Of a DNA stretch of 64,000 bases, positions 16,285 to 28,970 are shown piece by piece; the first letter of the stretch is position 1, and each line of letters opens with the position of its first letter. The DNA comes from Eubacteriaceae bacterium (lineage in GTDB: Bacteria > Bacillota > Clostridia > Lachnospirales > Lachnospiraceae). The stretch is taken from positions 186,001 to 250,000 of the forward strand of contig CAJTDQ010000003.1 of the NCBI GenBank assembly GCA_910574895.1, given 5' to 3'. The notes beneath the pieces were generated by a model. The model saw only the letters and a program-made list of their open reading frames with translations. It was not told where the DNA came from and ran no database searches. The position numbers were made by a program, and so were the translations under genes.

Positions 16285-16911
16285 ATGAGCGATACATTGT
16301 ATATTAAAATGGACCAATGTGTGGAAGTTACCAATGATTATGTAACAATTGGTGACGTGGCAAAATTAGAATGCAAAAATAAAACAGTAGTGAACAGACT
16401 AAAACCTATAAAATTATTAAATGACAATTCCAATGGAAAGAACAGATATATTGTATCTATTATGAAGATATTTGAGATAGTAGATCAGGAGTTTCAGAAT
16501 GTTGATGTTCAGAGTATTGGAGAAACAGACTGCATTATTGAATTTAAGAAAGCGAATAGTGATATTAAATGGCTGGAATTTCTTAAGGTGATTGTAATTT
16601 GCCTGATTTTATTTTTTGGTGCCGGATTTTCAATTATGTCTTTTAACAATGATATTTCCATTGGAAGTATGTTTGAGAAAGTATGTGAACTGCTTACAGG
16701 AGATAAAAATACAGGAAAAACAATTATGGAGGTAGGATATTCTCTTGGCTTAGGATTGGGAATTCTTACATTTTATAATCATTTTGGTCCAAAGAAACTT
16801 TCTAAGGATCCTACTCCAATAGAGGTGGAAATGAGAAAATATGAGACAGAGATTAATCAGGCATTAATAGATGGGCATAACAGACAAGATGGAAAGTTGG
16901 ATGTAAAATGA
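16285..16911 (+). CDS. spoVAA: Stage V sporulation protein AA
   Basis: 208 residues. A soluble N-terminal half (YIKMDQCVEVTNDYVTIGDV) is followed by two membrane spans at about 94-116 and 148-168. This matches SpoVAA, part of the inner forespore membrane apparatus that moves dipicolinic acid. The stop overlaps the spoVAB start by 4 nt (ATGA), indicating translational coupling. Expression in the family is sigma-G dependent; no sigma-G promoter was assigned here. Confidence 0.9.
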   Translation: MSDTLYIKMDQCVEVTNDYVTIGDVAKLECKNKTVVNRLKPIKLLNDNSNGKNRYIVSIMKIFEIVDQEFQNVDVQSIGETDCIIEFKKANSDIKWLEFLKVIVICLILFFGAGFSIMSFNNDISIGSMFEKVCELLTGDKNTGKTIMEVGYSLGLGLGILTFYNHFGPKKLSKDPTPIEVEMRKYETEINQALIDGHNRQDGKLDVK

Positions 16912-17348
16912 TGATATTGAAGTATATTATTATGGCACTGACATCTATCGGTGGTGGTGCTGTGATATCAGGAGCGGTATTTGCGTTGATTTCTTCCACA
17001 GGAGTTGTAACCAGAATGGCAGATAAGACAAAAACCGCAAAGTATGTAAGAATATATGAAAGTGCTATTATTTTAGGGGGAATATGGTGGAATTTATTTT
17101 GGATATTCTCTATAGATATTCCTTTTGGAGCAAATTTCTCACAAGGATTTCAGGTGATTATGGGACTGGCACAGGGAGTATTTGTAGGATGTCTTGCGGT
17201 GTCTTTGGCAGAAGCATTAAATGGAACAGCAATTTTTTCCAGAAGAGTAAAGCTTAAAATGGGGTTAAGTTTTATTGTATTATCAATTGCACTGGGAAAA
17301 GTAGCAGCAGCGTTAATTCAGTTTGGAAATAACTGGGTGAAAAAGTAG
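16908..17348 (+). CDS. spoVAB: Stage V sporulation protein AB
   Basis: 146 residues, four hydrophobic spans (GGGAVISGAVFALIS, AIILGGIWWNLFWIF, VIMGLAQGVFVGCLAVSL, SFIVLSIALGKVAAALI). Size and position directly after spoVAA fit SpoVAB, a membrane component of the dipicolinate transport system. The start overlaps the spoVAA stop. Confidence 0.9.
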   Translation: MMILKYIIMALTSIGGGAVISGAVFALISSTGVVTRMADKTKTAKYVRIYESAIILGGIWWNLFWIFSIDIPFGANFSQGFQVIMGLAQGVFVGCLAVSLAEALNGTAIFSRRVKLKMGLSFIVLSIALGKVAAALIQFGNNWVKK

Positions 17349-17365
17349 GAGAATAGAGGTTGAGT

Positions 17366-17824
17366 ATGGAAAGTGAAGAGAGAAAAAAACAATATAATGA
17401 GTATGTGGAGAGAGTAACACCAAACAATAATCTGATAAAAGATATGTTCAACGCTTTCTGGATTGGCGGGTTGATATGTGTTATGGGTCAGGTATGGTTA
17501 GAAATCTTTATGTATTTTGGCATAGGAAAAGAGGATGCTGCCAGCTGGACTACATTAGTCCTGATATTGGAGAGCGTACTGCTAACAGGTTTTGGAATCT
17601 ATCCTAAGATTGCAAAGGTGGGTGGTGCAGGATGCCTTGTGCCTATTACGGGATTTGCTAATGGTGTGGTATCGCCAGCTATTGAGTTTCAGGCGGAAGG
17701 ACAGATTTTCGGTGTCGGTGCAAAAATATTTACGATAGCAGGTCCGGTAATTTTATATGGTATTTTCTCGAGTTGGGTTGTAGGAATTATCTATATGATT
17801 TTAAAGGCATGTGGAATCGTATAA
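17366..17824 (+). CDS. spoVAC: Stage V sporulation protein AC
   Basis: 152 residues from ATG 17366; a TTG at 17360 is also open, but AGAGG (17355-17359) is correctly spaced only for the ATG. Membrane protein with the family's Gly-rich loop GGAGCLVPITGFANGVVSPA. SpoVAC is a mechanosensitive dipicolinate channel in studied Bacillus. In most genomes spoVAD follows directly; here the next 2.4 kb hold two palindromic elements and an opposing putP. Confidence 0.94.
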   Translation: MESEERKKQYNEYVERVTPNNNLIKDMFNAFWIGGLICVMGQVWLEIFMYFGIGKEDAASWTTLVLILESVLLTGFGIYPKIAKVGGAGCLVPITGFANGVVSPAIEFQAEGQIFGVGAKIFTIAGPVILYGIFSSWVVGIIYMILKACGIV

Positions 17825-17843
17825 GAAATAGGGCTGTTACATC

Positions 17844-18127
17844 AAATTCCGGTTTGTCGAGGTGGTTTGAGTATAAAAGGATACACTTGGAAACTGAATT
17901 TCATAAACATTTGTAGATATAAAAAGAGTCTGAAAATTAAAGTACCGACTTCATCTTCACCGAATTTCTGAAGAAATTCGCTTCAGGTAAGTCTTAAAAA
18001 CTGATTTTGAAAATCAGTTTTTAACTTTAATTCATCAGATTCTTTTTATATACAAATCTATTTATGAAATTCAATGTTTCCAAGTGTATTCCTTTTATAT
18101 CTCTTCCCACCACCACAAATCGAATTT
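17844..18127 (+). repeat. Large palindromic element A with two internal hairpins
   Basis: Inverted ends AAATTCCGGTTTGT (17844-17857) and ACAAATCGAATTT (18115-18127). Long imperfect arms: GAGTATAAAAGGATACACTT at 17869 pairs with AAGTGTATTCCTTTTATATC near 18082. Inside are two smaller hairpins: GAATTTCTGAAGAAATTC (17962-17979) and a pair around TTAAAAACTGATTTT / AAATCAGTTTTTAA (17995-18024). Between them is a junction whose reverse complement (AGACTTACC ... GATGAAGTCGGT) recurs in element B. The arms match element C after typA. No coding sequence is seen here. Confidence 0.8.
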
Positions 18128-18200
18128 TTAAGAAATTAAATTCGTAGACTAGTACAAATTGCGAGAGCAGAGTAACCCTTATTTCGCTTGTTTATTTTGT

Positions 18201-18516
18201 ATCCGGTGGAAAGTTTTGTAGAGGTTGAGACATTTCACTGCTGAAATAATACGGACAGCGAATATAGGAACTTGAGAGTCTTGAATACATTTATAAAATA
18301 AAAATAATATTGAATATTAAGCGGACATTTGATTCACAAAATCAAATGTCCAGACTTACCTTCGAAAAAATCATCAGGATTTTTTCGAAGATGAAGTCGG
18401 TGCTTAAAATATTCAATATTATTTTTATTTTCTATAAATGTTTAAGACTCGAGGTGAAGATATTCTCTGTCTGTATTTCTTCAGCAGGAAAGTCACTCCC
18501 CTACAAACCGGAATTT
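18201..18516 (+). repeat. Large palindromic element B with two internal hairpins
   Basis: Imperfect inverted arms run from ATCCGG (18201) and TTTGTAG (18215) to CTACAAA (18501) and CCGGAATTT (18508-18516). The inner arms are CATTTATAAAATAAAAATAA and its partner near 18420-18440. Internal hairpin 1 is GGACATTTGATT / AATCAAATGTCC (18323-18351). The junction AGACTTACC is at 18352-18360. Hairpin 2 is TTCGAAAAAATC / GATTTTTTCGAA (18361-18389). GATGAAGTCGGT follows at 18390-18401. The element lies between convergent spoVAC and putP. Confidence 0.8.
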
Positions 18517-18530
18517 CTCAGGTATTCGAT

Positions 18531-20057
18531 TTATGCTTTTTTTATAGATTCAAATTCATCAATGATTTCCTGCTCAGGTGCTTTTGTAAGTAAACTTACT
18601 ACAACAATGAAGATGCAGGCAACAATAAATGCCGGAAGTAATTCATAGATGTCCCAGGCACCGCCGAGAGGTCTGATAACGAATTTCCATACGAATACCA
18701 TTACACCACCGGATAATAAACCGGCAATTGCACCATACTTGTTTGAGCGTTTCCAGAACAATGCGAATAACATAATTGGTCCAAAAGTTGCACCAAATCC
18801 TGCCCAGGCAAAAGATACAATTGTAAATACATTGCTGTCAGGGTCTGCTGCAAAGAATATTGCAATAATGGATATTACGATAACAGAACATCTTGCAACA
18901 ATAACTTTTGCTTTATCAGATAATTTCACTCCGAACACACCATCCATTAAGTTTTCTGTAATACTGGATGATGCAGCAAGAAGCTGGGAATCTGAAGTTG
19001 ACATCGTTGAAGCAAGAATACCTGCCAGAATAACACCGGCAATAATTGCAAAGAAAATACCATTCTGGCTGAGAGCATTTGCAATCTGAACGATAACAGT
19101 TTCTGTAGCAGAGCCTTCCAAAGCTGGAATGACATTTGCTTTTGACATACTGTATCCCATAATACCGATAAATAGTGCAATTGCCATGGCAATAACTACC
19201 CATACACTTGCAATACGTCGAGATAATTTTATTTTATTCTCATCTTCAATTGCCATAAATCTTAAAAGAATATGAGGCATACCGAAATATCCAAGACCCC
19301 ATGCAAGAGTGGATATAATTGTGATAATGCCATATGGTGAAGATGTGCCGGTAGCAGCATCAAATGTAGCGTTAAAGTTCAAGAAACCAGGAAGGTCTTT
19401 TACATTTGTAACTACCTGCTCAATGCCGCCTACAGAGTTGATTCCAAAAATAACAACAATAATTAATGCGATAGACATAATAATACTCTGAATAAAATCG
19501 CTTGTACTTGCTGCGAGGAAACCACCTAATGTTGTATAGGCAATAATTACAATGGCACTGATTATCATTGCAGTCATATAGTTGATTCCAAATAATGAAT
19601 TAAATAATTTTCCACATGCAGCAAAACCTGAAGCTGTATATGGTACAAAGAAAATAATGATAATTAAAGCGGCGATTCCGTTTAATACCCTTTTGTCGCG
19701 ATATCTGTTTGCAAAGAAATCAGGAATTGTAATTGCATTGATTTTTGCAGTGTATCGTCTAAGTCTCTTGGCAACAATGAGCCAGTTAATATATGTACCA
19801 AGTGCTAAACCTACGATTGTCCAAAAAACGTCGCAGACACCTGATAAATATGCAAGCCCCGGAAGTCCCATTAGCAGATAACTACTCATATCTGAGGCTT
19901 CAGCACTCATGGCAGTTACAAAAGGTCCTAGTTTTCTTCCGCCTAAATAAAAATCTCCGGCATCATTATTCTTTTTTGCATAATAAATACCGATTCCTAT
20001 AATTGCTATCATATATATAACGATAGAAATTAAAATACCAGTTTCTGATGTTGTCAT
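18531..20057 (-). CDS. putP: Sodium/proline symporter (SSS family)
   Basis: 508 residues, about 13 membrane spans, with the SSS-family start DFYLGGRKLGPFVTAMSAEASDMS. That motif and the overall length match PutP rather than other SSS members. It imports proline with sodium. The gene is on the opposite strand to the spoVA genes that flank it. RBS GAGAGGAG precedes the start. The substrate is inferred from family resemblance. Confidence 0.9.
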   Translation of the reverse strand: MTTSETGILISIVIYMIAIIGIGIYYAKKNNDAGDFYLGGRKLGPFVTAMSAEASDMSSYLLMGLPGLAYLSGVCDVFWTIVGLALGTYINWLIVAKRLRRYTAKINAITIPDFFANRYRDKRVLNGIAALIIIIFFVPYTASGFAACGKLFNSLFGINYMTAMIISAIVIIAYTTLGGFLAASTSDFIQSIIMSIALIIVVIFGINSVGGIEQVVTNVKDLPGFLNFNATFDAATGTSSPYGIITIISTLAWGLGYFGMPHILLRFMAIEDENKIKLSRRIASVWVVIAMAIALFIGIMGYSMSKANVIPALEGSATETVIVQIANALSQNGIFFAIIAGVILAGILASTMSTSDSQLLAASSSITENLMDGVFGVKLSDKAKVIVARCSVIVISIIAIFFAADPDSNVFTIVSFAWAGFGATFGPIMLFALFWKRSNKYGAIAGLLSGGVMVFVWKFVIRPLGGAWDIYELLPAFIVACIFIVVVSLLTKAPEQEIIDEFESIKKA

Positions 20058-20090
20058 AATTTTCTCCTCTCAAAAATAAAATTCTCTATT

Positions 20091-20119
20091 ATTCTATAAA
20101 AAAACGACAATTTAATCAA
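20091..20119 (-). promoter_or_regulatory. putP promoter
   Basis: On the reverse strand: TTGATT (20119-20114), 17-nt spacer, TAGAAT (20096-20091), about 35 nt before the putP start. Confidence 0.6.
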
Positions 20120-20228
20120 GTAAAACGTTAAACTGTAATGATAAAATATTAATTTGATTATTAGAATAATTAGTCAATTTCAGGAGAAAATAAAAGTAAA
20201 TAATTGCAAAAAAGGTAAAGGGGATAAT

Positions 20229-21239
20229 ATGGGTAGAATCGTTGGAAAACAAAGTATAGCCTTTGATGAACCGGCATATATCATTGAGGGAGCATCCATT
20301 GTTGGAGAAAAAGAAGGAGAAGGACCTCTTGGAAAACAGTTTGATGTGGTAGAACAGGATCCAATGCTGGGGCAGGATTCATGGGAAGAGGCTGAAAGTT
20401 TATTACAAAAAGAAGCAATACAAAAAGTATTGTTTAAGTCAAATATGAATAAGGAAGATATCAGATATATTTTCGCAGGAGATTTGCTGGGGCAGTTAAT
20501 TGCTACAACATTTGGGATTCTGGAATTTGAAATTCCGTTTTTTGGCTTGTATGGTGCATGTTCTACGATTGGAGAAGCACTCAGCGTTGCCGCAATTACA
20601 GTAGAAGGGGGAAATGCAAATAATGTTATAGCAATTGCATCGAGTCATTTTGCAAGTGCTGAAAGACAGTTCCGTTTCCCATTGGCTTATGGTAATCAGA
20701 GACCATATGCAGCTACATGGACTGTGACCGGGGCAGGAGCAGTGATTGTCAGTAAGGATAAGGGATTCGCAAAGATAACAGGAATTACAACAGGAAAAAT
20801 TGTTGATTATGGTGTAAAGGATGCACAGAATATGGGGGCATGTATGGCTCCGGCAGCGGCAGATGTTATTTATACACATTTTAAAGACTTTAATACGACA
20901 GCTGAGGATTATGATAAAATTATAACAGGAGATTTAGGAATTGTAGGAAAGACAATTCTATTAGATTTGTTAAGAGATAAAGGATATGATATTTCAAAAG
21001 TCCATATGGATTGTGGAATTGAGATGTTTGATGCAAGCAGTCAGGATACTCATGCAGGTGGAAGTGGATGCGGCTGTGCGGCAACAGTGCTTACATCTTA
21101 TATCTTTAAACAGTTAAAAAAGAAAGCATGGAAGAAAGTCTTATTTATTCCAACAGGTGCATTAATGTCACCGGTTAGCTTTAATGAAGGAAACAGTGTA
21201 CCGGGAATTGCACACCTTGTACAGATAGAAGCATGTTAA
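20229..21239 (+). CDS. spoVAD: Stage V sporulation protein AD
   Basis: 336 residues from ATG 20229, selected over ATG 20154 because AAAGGGG precedes it and the length then equals the family norm. Thiolase-like fold protein (GACSTIGEALSVAAITVEGG; GGSGCGCAATVLTSYIFKQL), known to bind dipicolinic acid in spores. It should be co-transcribed with spoVAE 76 nt downstream. It is cut off from spoVAA-AB-AC by putP and the palindromic elements, so it needs its own promoter. Confidence 0.95.
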   Translation: MGRIVGKQSIAFDEPAYIIEGASIVGEKEGEGPLGKQFDVVEQDPMLGQDSWEEAESLLQKEAIQKVLFKSNMNKEDIRYIFAGDLLGQLIATTFGILEFEIPFFGLYGACSTIGEALSVAAITVEGGNANNVIAIASSHFASAERQFRFPLAYGNQRPYAATWTVTGAGAVIVSKDKGFAKITGITTGKIVDYGVKDAQNMGACMAPAAADVIYTHFKDFNTTAEDYDKIITGDLGIVGKTILLDLLRDKGYDISKVHMDCGIEMFDASSQDTHAGGSGCGCAATVLTSYIFKQLKKKAWKKVLFIPTGALMSPVSFNEGNSVPGIAHLVQIEAC

Positions 21240-21315
21240 ATCATATTACAAATATCTTAAAAAATTGAATGAAGTTAGTTTGAAATAGAATAAATAAAAT
21301 GAGGGGATAAAACAG

Positions 21316-21669
21316 ATGATTTTTTTGAAAAGTTTTTTAGTTGGTGGTGTGATTTGTGCCATTGTACAGATTTTTATTGATAAAACAAAACTTACACCGG
21401 GAAGAATTATGGTTGGATTAGTATGCCTTGGTGTTATACTTGGAGCAATAGGAATATATGAGCCATTTTCAAAATGGGCAGGATGTGGTGCTACAGTACC
21501 GTTGATTGGATTCGGAAATAACCTTTGGAAAGGAATGAAAGAAGCTATCAGTGAATCAGGCGTTCTTGGATTGTTTAAAGGAGGTTTCACTTCCAGTGCA
21601 GTAGGAATATCAGGAGCACTTATTTTAGGATATTTGGCATCGCTTATATTTAAGCCTAAAATGAAATAA
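21316..21669 (+). CDS. spoVAE: Stage V sporulation protein AE
   Basis: 117 residues, hydrophobic with three to four spans, and the SpoVAC/AE-type loop GCGATVPLIGFGNNLWKG. Follows spoVAD as in other Firmicutes, behind GAGGGG. Member of the dipicolinate uptake complex in the forespore membrane. Paralogous to SpoVAC, but the order and short N-terminus identify AE (AEb type). Confidence 0.92.
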   Translation: MIFLKSFLVGGVICAIVQIFIDKTKLTPGRIMVGLVCLGVILGAIGIYEPFSKWAGCGATVPLIGFGNNLWKGMKEAISESGVLGLFKGGFTSSAVGISGALILGYLASLIFKPKMK

Positions 21670-27010: not shown

Positions 27011-28843
27011 ATGATAAGAGAAGATGTTAGAAATATAGCGATTATTGCACATGTAGATCATGGTAAAACTACTTTAGTTGATGAACTATTGAAGCAGAGT
27101 GGTGTTTTTAGAGAAAACCAGGAAGTAGCTGAAAGAGTCATGGATTCTAATGATTTGGAAAGAGAGAGAGGAATCACAATTCTTTCTAAGAATACAGCCG
27201 TAACATACAAAGATACAAAAATTAATATTATAGATACACCGGGACATGCAGATTTTGGTGGAGAAGTTGAGCGTGTATTGAAAATGGTAAATGGTGTTGT
27301 TCTCGTGGTAGACGCTTTTGAGGGAGCAATGCCACAGACAAGATTTGTGTTGAAAAAAGCATTGGAACTCAGCCTTCCTGTTATTGTATGTATTAATAAA
27401 ATTGACCGTCCGGAAGCAAGACCGGAAGAGGTTATTGATGAAGTATTAGAATTATTTATTGAACTTGATGCAAATGAAGAACAGCTAGACTGTCCTTTTG
27501 TGTTTGCATCAGCAAAACAGGGCTTTGCAAAATTAGATATGAATGATGGTGAAGAGGACATGAAGCCTTTATTTGAGACTATTATTGATTATATTCCGGC
27601 ACCGGAAGGTGATGCAGAGGCTGACACGCAGGTGCTTATCAGTACTATCGACTATAATGAATATGTTGGTCGAATCGGTGTTGGTAAAGTTGATAATGGA
27701 ACAATTAAGGTAAATCAGGACGTAACCTTAGTCAATTATCATGATCCGGAAAATGTAAAACGTGTAAAGATTAGTAAGCTGTATGAATTTGAGGGATTAA
27801 ACAAAGTAGAGGTTCAGGAAGCAACAGTTGGTGCTATTGTGGCAATCTCCGGTATCGCAGACATTAGTATAGGAGATACGATTTGTTCTTTGGAAAATCC
27901 GAAACCAATTCCATTCCAGAAGATTTCTGATCCGACAATCTCAATGCAGTTTATGGTAAATGACAGCCCATTGGCAGGTCAGGAAGGAAAGTATGTAACA
28001 TCACGTCATATCAGAGACAGATTAATGAGAGAGTTAAACACAGATGTTTCTTTGAGAGTAGAGGAGACAGAGGATATGAATTCCTTTAAAGTGTCCGGAC
28101 GAGGAGAACTGCACTTATCTGTTCTAATTGAAAATATGAGACGTGAGGGTTATGAGTTTGCTGTCAGCAAGGCAGAAGTTATTTATAAAGAAGATGAACG
28201 TGGCAAAAAGTTAGAGCCTATGGAGATTTGTTACATTGATGTTCCTGATGAGTTTTCCGGTGCAATTATCGAGAAACTAAGTAACCGTAAAGGTGAATTA
28301 CAGGGAATGGCTCCGACTGGTGACGGTTATACACGTTTAGAATTTAGAATTCCATCCCGTGGATTAATTGGATATCGGGGACAGTTTATGACAGATACGA
28401 AGGGAAATGGAGTTATCAATACAGTATTTGACGAATATGATATTTTCCGTGGCGAAATCCAGTACAGAAAACAGGGCTCTCTGATAGCTTTTGAAGCAGG
28501 AGAAGCAATTACGTATGGATTGTTCAATGCACAGGAGCGTGGAACTTTATTTATTGGACCGGGTGAGAAAGTATATTCAGGAATGATCGTAGGACAGACG
28601 GGAAGAGCAGAGGACATTGAGGTAAATGTTTGTAAGACAAAGCATTTATCAAATACGAGAACATCCAGCTCTGATGAAGCATTGAGATTGGTTCCAAAGA
28701 AAGAACTGAGTCTGGAGCAGGCATTGGAATATATTGATACAGATGAATTGCTGGAGATTACACCGGAGAGTCTTCGTATTAGAAAGAAGATTCTTGATCC
28801 GACACTTCGAAAGAGGGCAAATATCAGAAAGCAGAATCAATAA
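27011..28843 (+). CDS. typA: Ribosome-associated GTPase TypA/BipA
   Basis: 610 residues. GTPase motifs: AHVDHGKTTL (G1), RGITI (G2), DTPGH (G3), NKID (G4) and SAKQ (G5 region). EF-G-like domains and the TypA-specific C-terminal part (GYRGQFMTDTKGNGVINTVF, then TRTSSSDEALRLVPKK) follow. A translational GTPase linked in other bacteria to ribosome assembly and stress or low-temperature growth. RBS AAGGAAGGG precedes the ATG. A long palindrome begins right after the stop. Confidence 0.97.
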   Translation: MIREDVRNIAIIAHVDHGKTTLVDELLKQSGVFRENQEVAERVMDSNDLERERGITILSKNTAVTYKDTKINIIDTPGHADFGGEVERVLKMVNGVVLVVDAFEGAMPQTRFVLKKALELSLPVIVCINKIDRPEARPEEVIDEVLELFIELDANEEQLDCPFVFASAKQGFAKLDMNDGEEDMKPLFETIIDYIPAPEGDAEADTQVLISTIDYNEYVGRIGVGKVDNGTIKVNQDVTLVNYHDPENVKRVKISKLYEFEGLNKVEVQEATVGAIVAISGIADISIGDTICSLENPKPIPFQKISDPTISMQFMVNDSPLAGQEGKYVTSRHIRDRLMRELNTDVSLRVEETEDMNSFKVSGRGELHLSVLIENMRREGYEFAVSKAEVIYKEDERGKKLEPMEICYIDVPDEFSGAIIEKLSNRKGELQGMAPTGDGYTRLEFRIPSRGLIGYRGQFMTDTKGNGVINTVFDEYDIFRGEIQYRKQGSLIAFEAGEAITYGLFNAQERGTLFIGPGEKVYSGMIVGQTGRAEDIEVNVCKTKHLSNTRTSSSDEALRLVPKKELSLEQALEYIDTDELLEITPESLRIRKKILDPTLRKRANIRKQNQ

Positions 28844-28850
28844 AAATTTT

Positions 28851-28970
28851 AGATTGTGGAGTAGTTCGAGTATAAAAGGATAAACTTGGAAACTGAATTT
28901 TATAAACTAATTTGTATATAAAATTCAGTTTCCAAGTTTATCCTTTTATACTCGAACCGCTGCAAATCGT
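28851..28970 (+). repeat. Palindromic element C: perfect 41-bp inverted repeat
   Basis: Arms 28864-28904 and 28917-28957 are perfect reverse complements across 41 bases, with a 12-nt loop. The arm begins GTTCGAGTATAAAAGGATAA and continues ACTTGGAAACTGAATTTTATA, nearly identical to the outer arm of element A. Weaker inverted ends extend outwards (GATTGTGGAG / CTGCAAATCG). It lacks the two inner hairpins and junction motif of A and B. It lies immediately after typA and has no T-run. Confidence 0.85.

Follow-up and report, generated by a model that had tools for sequence, protein, structure and literature searches.

A giant inverted hairpin pair between spoVAC and a putP-like gene, probably a copy of a mobile, non-autonomous DNA repeat in Lachnospiraceae

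The window analyzed here, a stretch of 64,000 nucleotides from the Eubacteriaceae bacterium assembly GCA_910574895.1 (contig CAJTDQ010000003.1, positions 186,001 to 250,000 of the forward strand), contains a single 673-bp non-coding element at 17844–18516, which carries terminal inverted repeats and consists of two inverted halves, A and B. These halves probably make up a single copy of a mobile DNA repeat of the Lachnospiraceae that is non-autonomous, similar to a giant REPIN or MITE and recognized by its fold; its hosts are gut bacteria of this family. The repeat is dispersed, multi-copy and devoid of ORFs, it prefers the ends of genes, and in the window it was inserted at a site where relatives have a terminator. 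The two arms of its stems change sequence together. The features of the element, and of a related remnant in the same window, are as follows (coordinates, strand, description).

17844–18516, no strand: whole element, one full copy of the family; it fills the spoVAC/putP intergenic region, an empty site in relatives
17844–17862, plus: left terminal inverted repeat, AAATTCCGGTTTGTCGAGG; pairs with 18498–18516 and is common to most copies of the source genome
17844–18127, minus (tip, in model orientation): giant hairpin A; fold of −122 kcal/mol
17944–17955, minus: junction strand GATGAAGTCGGT of A, second strand of P3; conserved in the tip alignment
17986–17994, minus: junction strand AGACTTACC of A, first strand of P3; conserved in the tip alignment
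18128–18212, no strand: 85-bp spacer separating the halves; several other copies of the source genome have one of about 540 bp
18213–18516, plus (tip, in model orientation): giant hairpin B; fold of −134 kcal/mol
18323–18351, plus: tip hairpin 1 of B, GGACATTTGATT..AATCAAATGTCC
18352–18360, plus: junction strand AGACTTACC of B; conserved in the tip alignment
18360–18390, plus: tip hairpin 2 of B, fully paired through a change of TGAG to TTCG, unlike nearly all sister copies
18390–18401, plus: junction strand GATGAAGTCGGT of B; conserved in the tip alignment
18498–18516, minus: right terminal inverted repeat, AAATTCCGGTTTGTAGGGG on the minus strand; pairs with 17844–17862
28858–28960, no strand: tip-less remnant of an A-type hairpin with 44-bp arms, 15 nt 3′ of the ORF at 27011–28843

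The element is flanked by spoVAC (stop codon at 17824) and by a convergent gene for a putP-like sodium:solute symporter, which ends at 18531. Its terminal inverted repeats (AAATTCCGGTTTGT.../...ACAAACCGGAATTT) are 19 nt long and identical at 17 of 19 positions. The initial annotation had placed two palindromic elements here, and both were found to fold far beyond chance: the folding energy was −97.5 kcal/mol for A (shuffled mean, −36.6; z, −16.3) and −79.6 kcal/mol for B (shuffled mean, −27.6; z, −14.3), and none of 200 shuffles equaled either value. A covariance model matched half A at 17907–18054 on the minus strand (142 bits) and half B at 18292–18441 on the plus strand (146 bits). On the minus strand, the tip of A consists of hairpin 1 (TTAAAAACTGATTTT.C.AAAATCAGTTTTTAA), AGACTTACC, hairpin 2 and GATGAAGTCGGT, in that order. 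A and B share both junction strands and differ in hairpin 1, in agreement with the fixed junctions and different stems described originally, and the proposed pairing of GACTT with AAGTC was present in the predicted fold of both halves, where it forms P3. The further claim that both copies are fully paired holds for hairpin 2 of B; hairpin 2 of A keeps a conserved internal loop (TGAAG/GGTGAAG), which has been lost in B. The spoVA operon around the element (AA, AB, AC / AD, AE; 16285–21669) is split between spoVAC and spoVAD by the symporter gene on the opposite strand, an order common to genomes G013 and G022 and not seen directly 3′ of spoVAC in the short stretches of the other genus loci.

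BLAST comparison with the element detected about 20 loci in the source genome, many of them 95–99% identical, which included full copies, single halves of about 300 bp and some copies whose spacer is about 540 bp long. No ORF was common to these copies, and no transposase ORF or remnant was found in them; the copies are thus not ordinary decayed insertion sequences, which the initial annotation had considered as a possible refutation. A covariance model (R1) built from 14 copies matched 8 of 23 genomes of the genus and 10 of 250 genomes of the family, and a second model (R2) matched 32 of 397 family genomes, corresponding to 26 of 334 Lachnospiraceae genera. The covariance search that had been suggested therefore did retrieve relatives with the conserved junction. 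Samples at the order level (295 genomes) and the phylum level (398 genomes) gave no match except in the source genome, and plasmids and phages gave no match to the window copy. Outside this repeat family, the junction pattern also matched AC2028, RGIG8171, Kurthia, Butyrivibrio X503 and a viral contig; these matches did not adopt the structure and were considered fortuitous. Full counts in nine genomes were 114, 84, 40, 40, 26, 14, 12, 5 and 2 copies, indicating a distribution that is patchy and often abundant.

In most copies, a half is a hairpin of 230–440 nt with a conserved three-way-junction tip. The consensus starts with a long outer stem, followed by hairpin 1 (RRAAtYTGatt..CA..aatCARATTYY-like), A, the 5-bp P3 and CTGAG, and proceeds through P4 with its CATCAG loop, GYGAAT, P3′ and CGGT to the other strand of the outer stem. 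By resemblance, CTGAG and the opposite GYGAAT could form tandem G–A pairs as in kink-turns. The unpaired tip motifs are conserved across genera, and the terminal repeats differ between them. Copies in G274 are bounded by GGGGGGAC...GTCCCCCC, and there the closing C of the stem is followed by GTCCCC, giving a CGTC-like sequence; other genera vary. Where two halves lay within 1 kb of each other, they were in minus-then-plus order in 29 of 29 cases, with 160–590 nt between the model matches.

The empty site was found in G013, the SpoVAC of which is 98% identical, and in G022; in both, spoVAC and putP are convergent, the element is missing and the short gap holds a simple terminator hairpin followed by T's. 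The absence of the element from this terminator site indicates that it was inserted there in the lineage of the window, the comparison covering one insertion site. Near-identical copies occupied different sites in G000, G106 and G215, and those of G106 and G215 support mobility. Two species carry copies at one and the same site next to HIT/murG, which fits long residence as well as mobility. The flanks were TA-like in about half of the source-genome copies, and no target-site duplication was evident in G106 and G215.

Stems differed completely between copies, even inside one genome, yet about 95% of their positions were paired. Among 49 aligned tips, standard pairs accounted for 94.7% of pair cells, compared with 59.5% in shuffled and 40–49% in slid controls, and 938 cells were doubly changed compared with 242 (0 of 500 shuffles as high); all 57 base pairs had changed on both sides. 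The covariation statistics proposed at the outset were thus clear. Selection on a folded form, as argued in the initial annotation, is consistent with the conserved junction and the massive compensatory change in further copies. The inference of such selection from kept pairing was too strong, because G–U intermediates are few, double changes are already present at 6–14% divergence and one copy in the window has a rewritten arm. Ordinary RNA evolution passes through G–U pairs. Here, 4656 pair cells from two genomes contained 88 G–T (1.9%) and 68 A–C (1.5%) combinations. In 13 close pairs of copies from the same genome, 6–14% diverged, pair changes were double in 59 cases and single in 40. Adjacent double changes numbered 9 (4.1 expected), and 9 of 500 shuffles reached this number. 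In the youngest copies of the source genome, one-sided changes outnumbered double changes.

Arm conversion, in which one arm was rewritten from the other, is clearest in the remnant at 28858–28960. There, 43 of 44 positions are identical between the two arms. Each arm is of the left-arm type, as neither has the three small insertions that mark the right-arm type, and each carries the private changes ATAAAC (for ATACAC) and TTTTAT (for TTTCAT). In hairpin 2 of the window's half B, the change to TTCG makes perfect a stem in which nearly all sister copies retain TGAG. The rarity of G–U, the early double changes and the remnant together indicate arm-to-arm templating at the DNA level and not only selection on RNA, and covariation here is therefore partly a mutational product. 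DNA template switching alone would give such paired changes without selection; the conserved tip, unpaired bases, loops, junctions and inverted arrangement still call for selection. For RNA genes, both the creation and the repair of hairpins by template switching have been described (PMC8794818). Two other candidate processes were set aside. For a mid-stem replacement between the two G048 copies, gene conversion of the inner part can account. As for stems captured from host sequence, a search with the outer arms of 22 hairpins against eight of their own genomes revealed no unrelated gene that clearly matched; it returned other family copies and, for part of the arm at locus L133, a dispersed repeat. 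This 72-nt part is present in about 25 copies in G274 (e.g., C117:34541, C121:75130 and C78:181255), some of them in tandem.

Isolated arm mismatches at well-paired positions on the tip strand of 112 hairpins comprised 113 G–T and 55 A–C (p = 9e-6), and a smaller count over all positions gave 87 and 60. This mild excess suggests that the tip strand folds on its own or that mutation is strand-biased, and is compatible with single-stranded DNA and RNA alike; its restriction to one strand weakens a purely symmetric DNA cruciform. It also speaks for a structured RNA, as do the strong covariation and the unpaired tip motifs conserved across genera. According to that explanation, the tip strand is transcribed, the three-way junction with its CTGAG/GYGAAT loop acts as a regulatory or processed RNA, and pairing is maintained by selection on this RNA. 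We consider it unlikely, because G–U makes up about 2% of pairs with A–C nearly as common, copy number is patchy (0 to 114) and paired halves lie on opposite strands. No Rfam family fitted either, the weak matches to plant miRNA models with long hairpins being below gathering scores; the same search also gave a 6S RNA beside the element at locus L117. Rare G–U, patchy copy number and mobility suggest DNA rather than RNA.

The position of the copies relative to genes raises a further explanation. At 42 loci with mechanically called ORFs, the neighboring genes were convergent in 19, tandem in 17 and divergent in 6, and the median distance from the palindrome edge to the neighboring stop codon was 34 nt. 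Considering also that the window copy sits at the terminator site of its relatives, the elements might be bidirectional terminators or protectors of mRNA 3′ ends that spread by harmless replacement of terminators. This seems improbable as the main explanation, since a terminator needs no conserved three-way junction, inverted doubling or 250-nt stem and some copies are in divergent settings. It is equally improbable that the element is an ordinary MITE derived from a DDE insertion sequence, with terminal inverted repeats recognized in double-stranded DNA and hairpins as passengers: the terminal repeats and TA-like flanks of the source genome and the bounded copies of G274 would suit it, but the tip is conserved while the terminal repeats differ between genera, and the transposase with the same ends that the initial annotation had envisaged did not appear, no insertion sequence being recognized among 70 end-like sites of the source genome, of which those outside the copies were inspected in part.

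For the mobile DNA repeat that we favor, the following course would account for the data. The hairpin would form where DNA is single-stranded, such as at the replication fork, and the folded tip with its junction, to the exclusion of the stem sequence, would serve as the recognition signal. An enzyme acting in trans may mobilize halves or inverted pairs, as RAYT is thought to do with REP and REPIN hairpins. Template switching between the arms during replication would restore perfect stems, which could then drift freely and stay paired, and selection for mobility would keep the tip, loops and junctions. Being non-coding, the element would be tolerated when inserted near stop codons, and its hairpin may assume the role of terminator or 3′-end protector. 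More tentatively, and with somewhat less than even confidence, we suggest a class of mobile elements defined by fold and hardly by sequence, in which an enzyme recognizes the single strand in its folded state and each copy acquires private stems as one arm is rewritten from the other by template switching in replication or transposition.

No mobilizing enzyme was found for the repeat among the Y1 genes tested, the wider-spaced pairs and the end sites of the source genome. Y1 HuH transposases (PF01797) were present in 12 of 14 positive genomes, the two exceptions being G292 and G208; none of the Y1 genes tested had a full-size element beside it, the matches there being two weak ones to simple hairpins. 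A HuH partner is thus not supported. An autonomous version was sought in minus/plus pairs with wider spacing; those of G058 (1.9 kb) and G055 (5 kb) enclose ordinary genes and no recognized transposase. At loci L195 and L196 (G145 and G057), RAYT-sized Y1 genes lie beside simple hairpins (GGGGTCAGACCCC in one case; GGGGACGTGGTATTTTTGAAAATACCACGTCCC, with GGGGAC...GTCCC, in the other), and these are probably ordinary REP systems.

Among known systems, the attC sites of integrons are recognized as folded single strands, and their arms are variable while unpaired bases and the junction are conserved. The repeat shares this division into variable and conserved parts and probably also the recognition as a folded strand; it differs in size and in its branched tip, lacks an integron context and occurs as inverted pairs at gene ends. 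Correia and YPAL elements belong to the bacterial miniature inverted-repeat elements, as do the enterobacterial MITEs RU-1 and RU-2 of 127 and 168 bp (PMC2759123). Like these, the repeat is non-coding, intergenic, palindromic and multi-copy with terminal inverted repeats; unlike them, it has two giant hairpins per element, a branched conserved tip and concerted stem variation, and at 0.3–1.2 kb it is much longer. The ends of IS200/IS605 elements carry a subterminal hairpin as a single-strand recognition signal (PMC6006769), whereas the ends here are inverted, not direct, and enclose no transposase gene. REP, BIME and REPIN sequences are palindromes of 20–40 bp with 5–13-bp stems and GTAG or CGTC tags (PMC3116915, PMC2817692, PMC3733652, PMC6006769). 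The repeat works most like REPINs or BIMEs with their RAYT (TnpAREP), in being a non-autonomous, multi-copy intergenic palindrome found singly and in inverted pairs and in forming an imperfect hairpin with conserved unpaired motifs; as in REPINs, the pairs are inverted around a spacer, invariably minus–plus. Its halves of 230–440 nt have a branched tip and no conserved stem sequence, exceed REP size and showed no association with RAYT among the Y1 genes tested, and we regard it not as a REP member but as a variant of mobile palindromic repeats. A limited search of the open literature returned no description of this repeat in Lachnospiraceae, which is weak evidence of novelty.

A repeat family that reaches more than 100 copies per genome is thus absent from Rfam. 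Its dozens of natural replicates allow compensatory stem change to be dated and open to test, in RNA as well as DNA hairpins, the question of what preserves perfect long stems, selection or template switching. The family also points to an enzyme that would recognize a branched DNA (or RNA) tip, and it warns that covariation alone is no proof of a functional RNA.

Several copies showed additional features. At L031 and L035 of the source genome (C2:285.7 kb and C4:166 kb), about 150 nt, themselves palindromic, are nested inside hairpin 2 of half A. The spacers of about 540 bp at L034, L035, L036 and L039 contain several short repeats around TTTTTACATATATAT, with no recognizable kinship to the hairpins. 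At L135 (G019 C1:1333200-1336700), two copies in direct orientation, with similar outer stems, flank asnS; the second directly follows the asnS stop codon on the 3′ side and has lost the three-way-junction tip.
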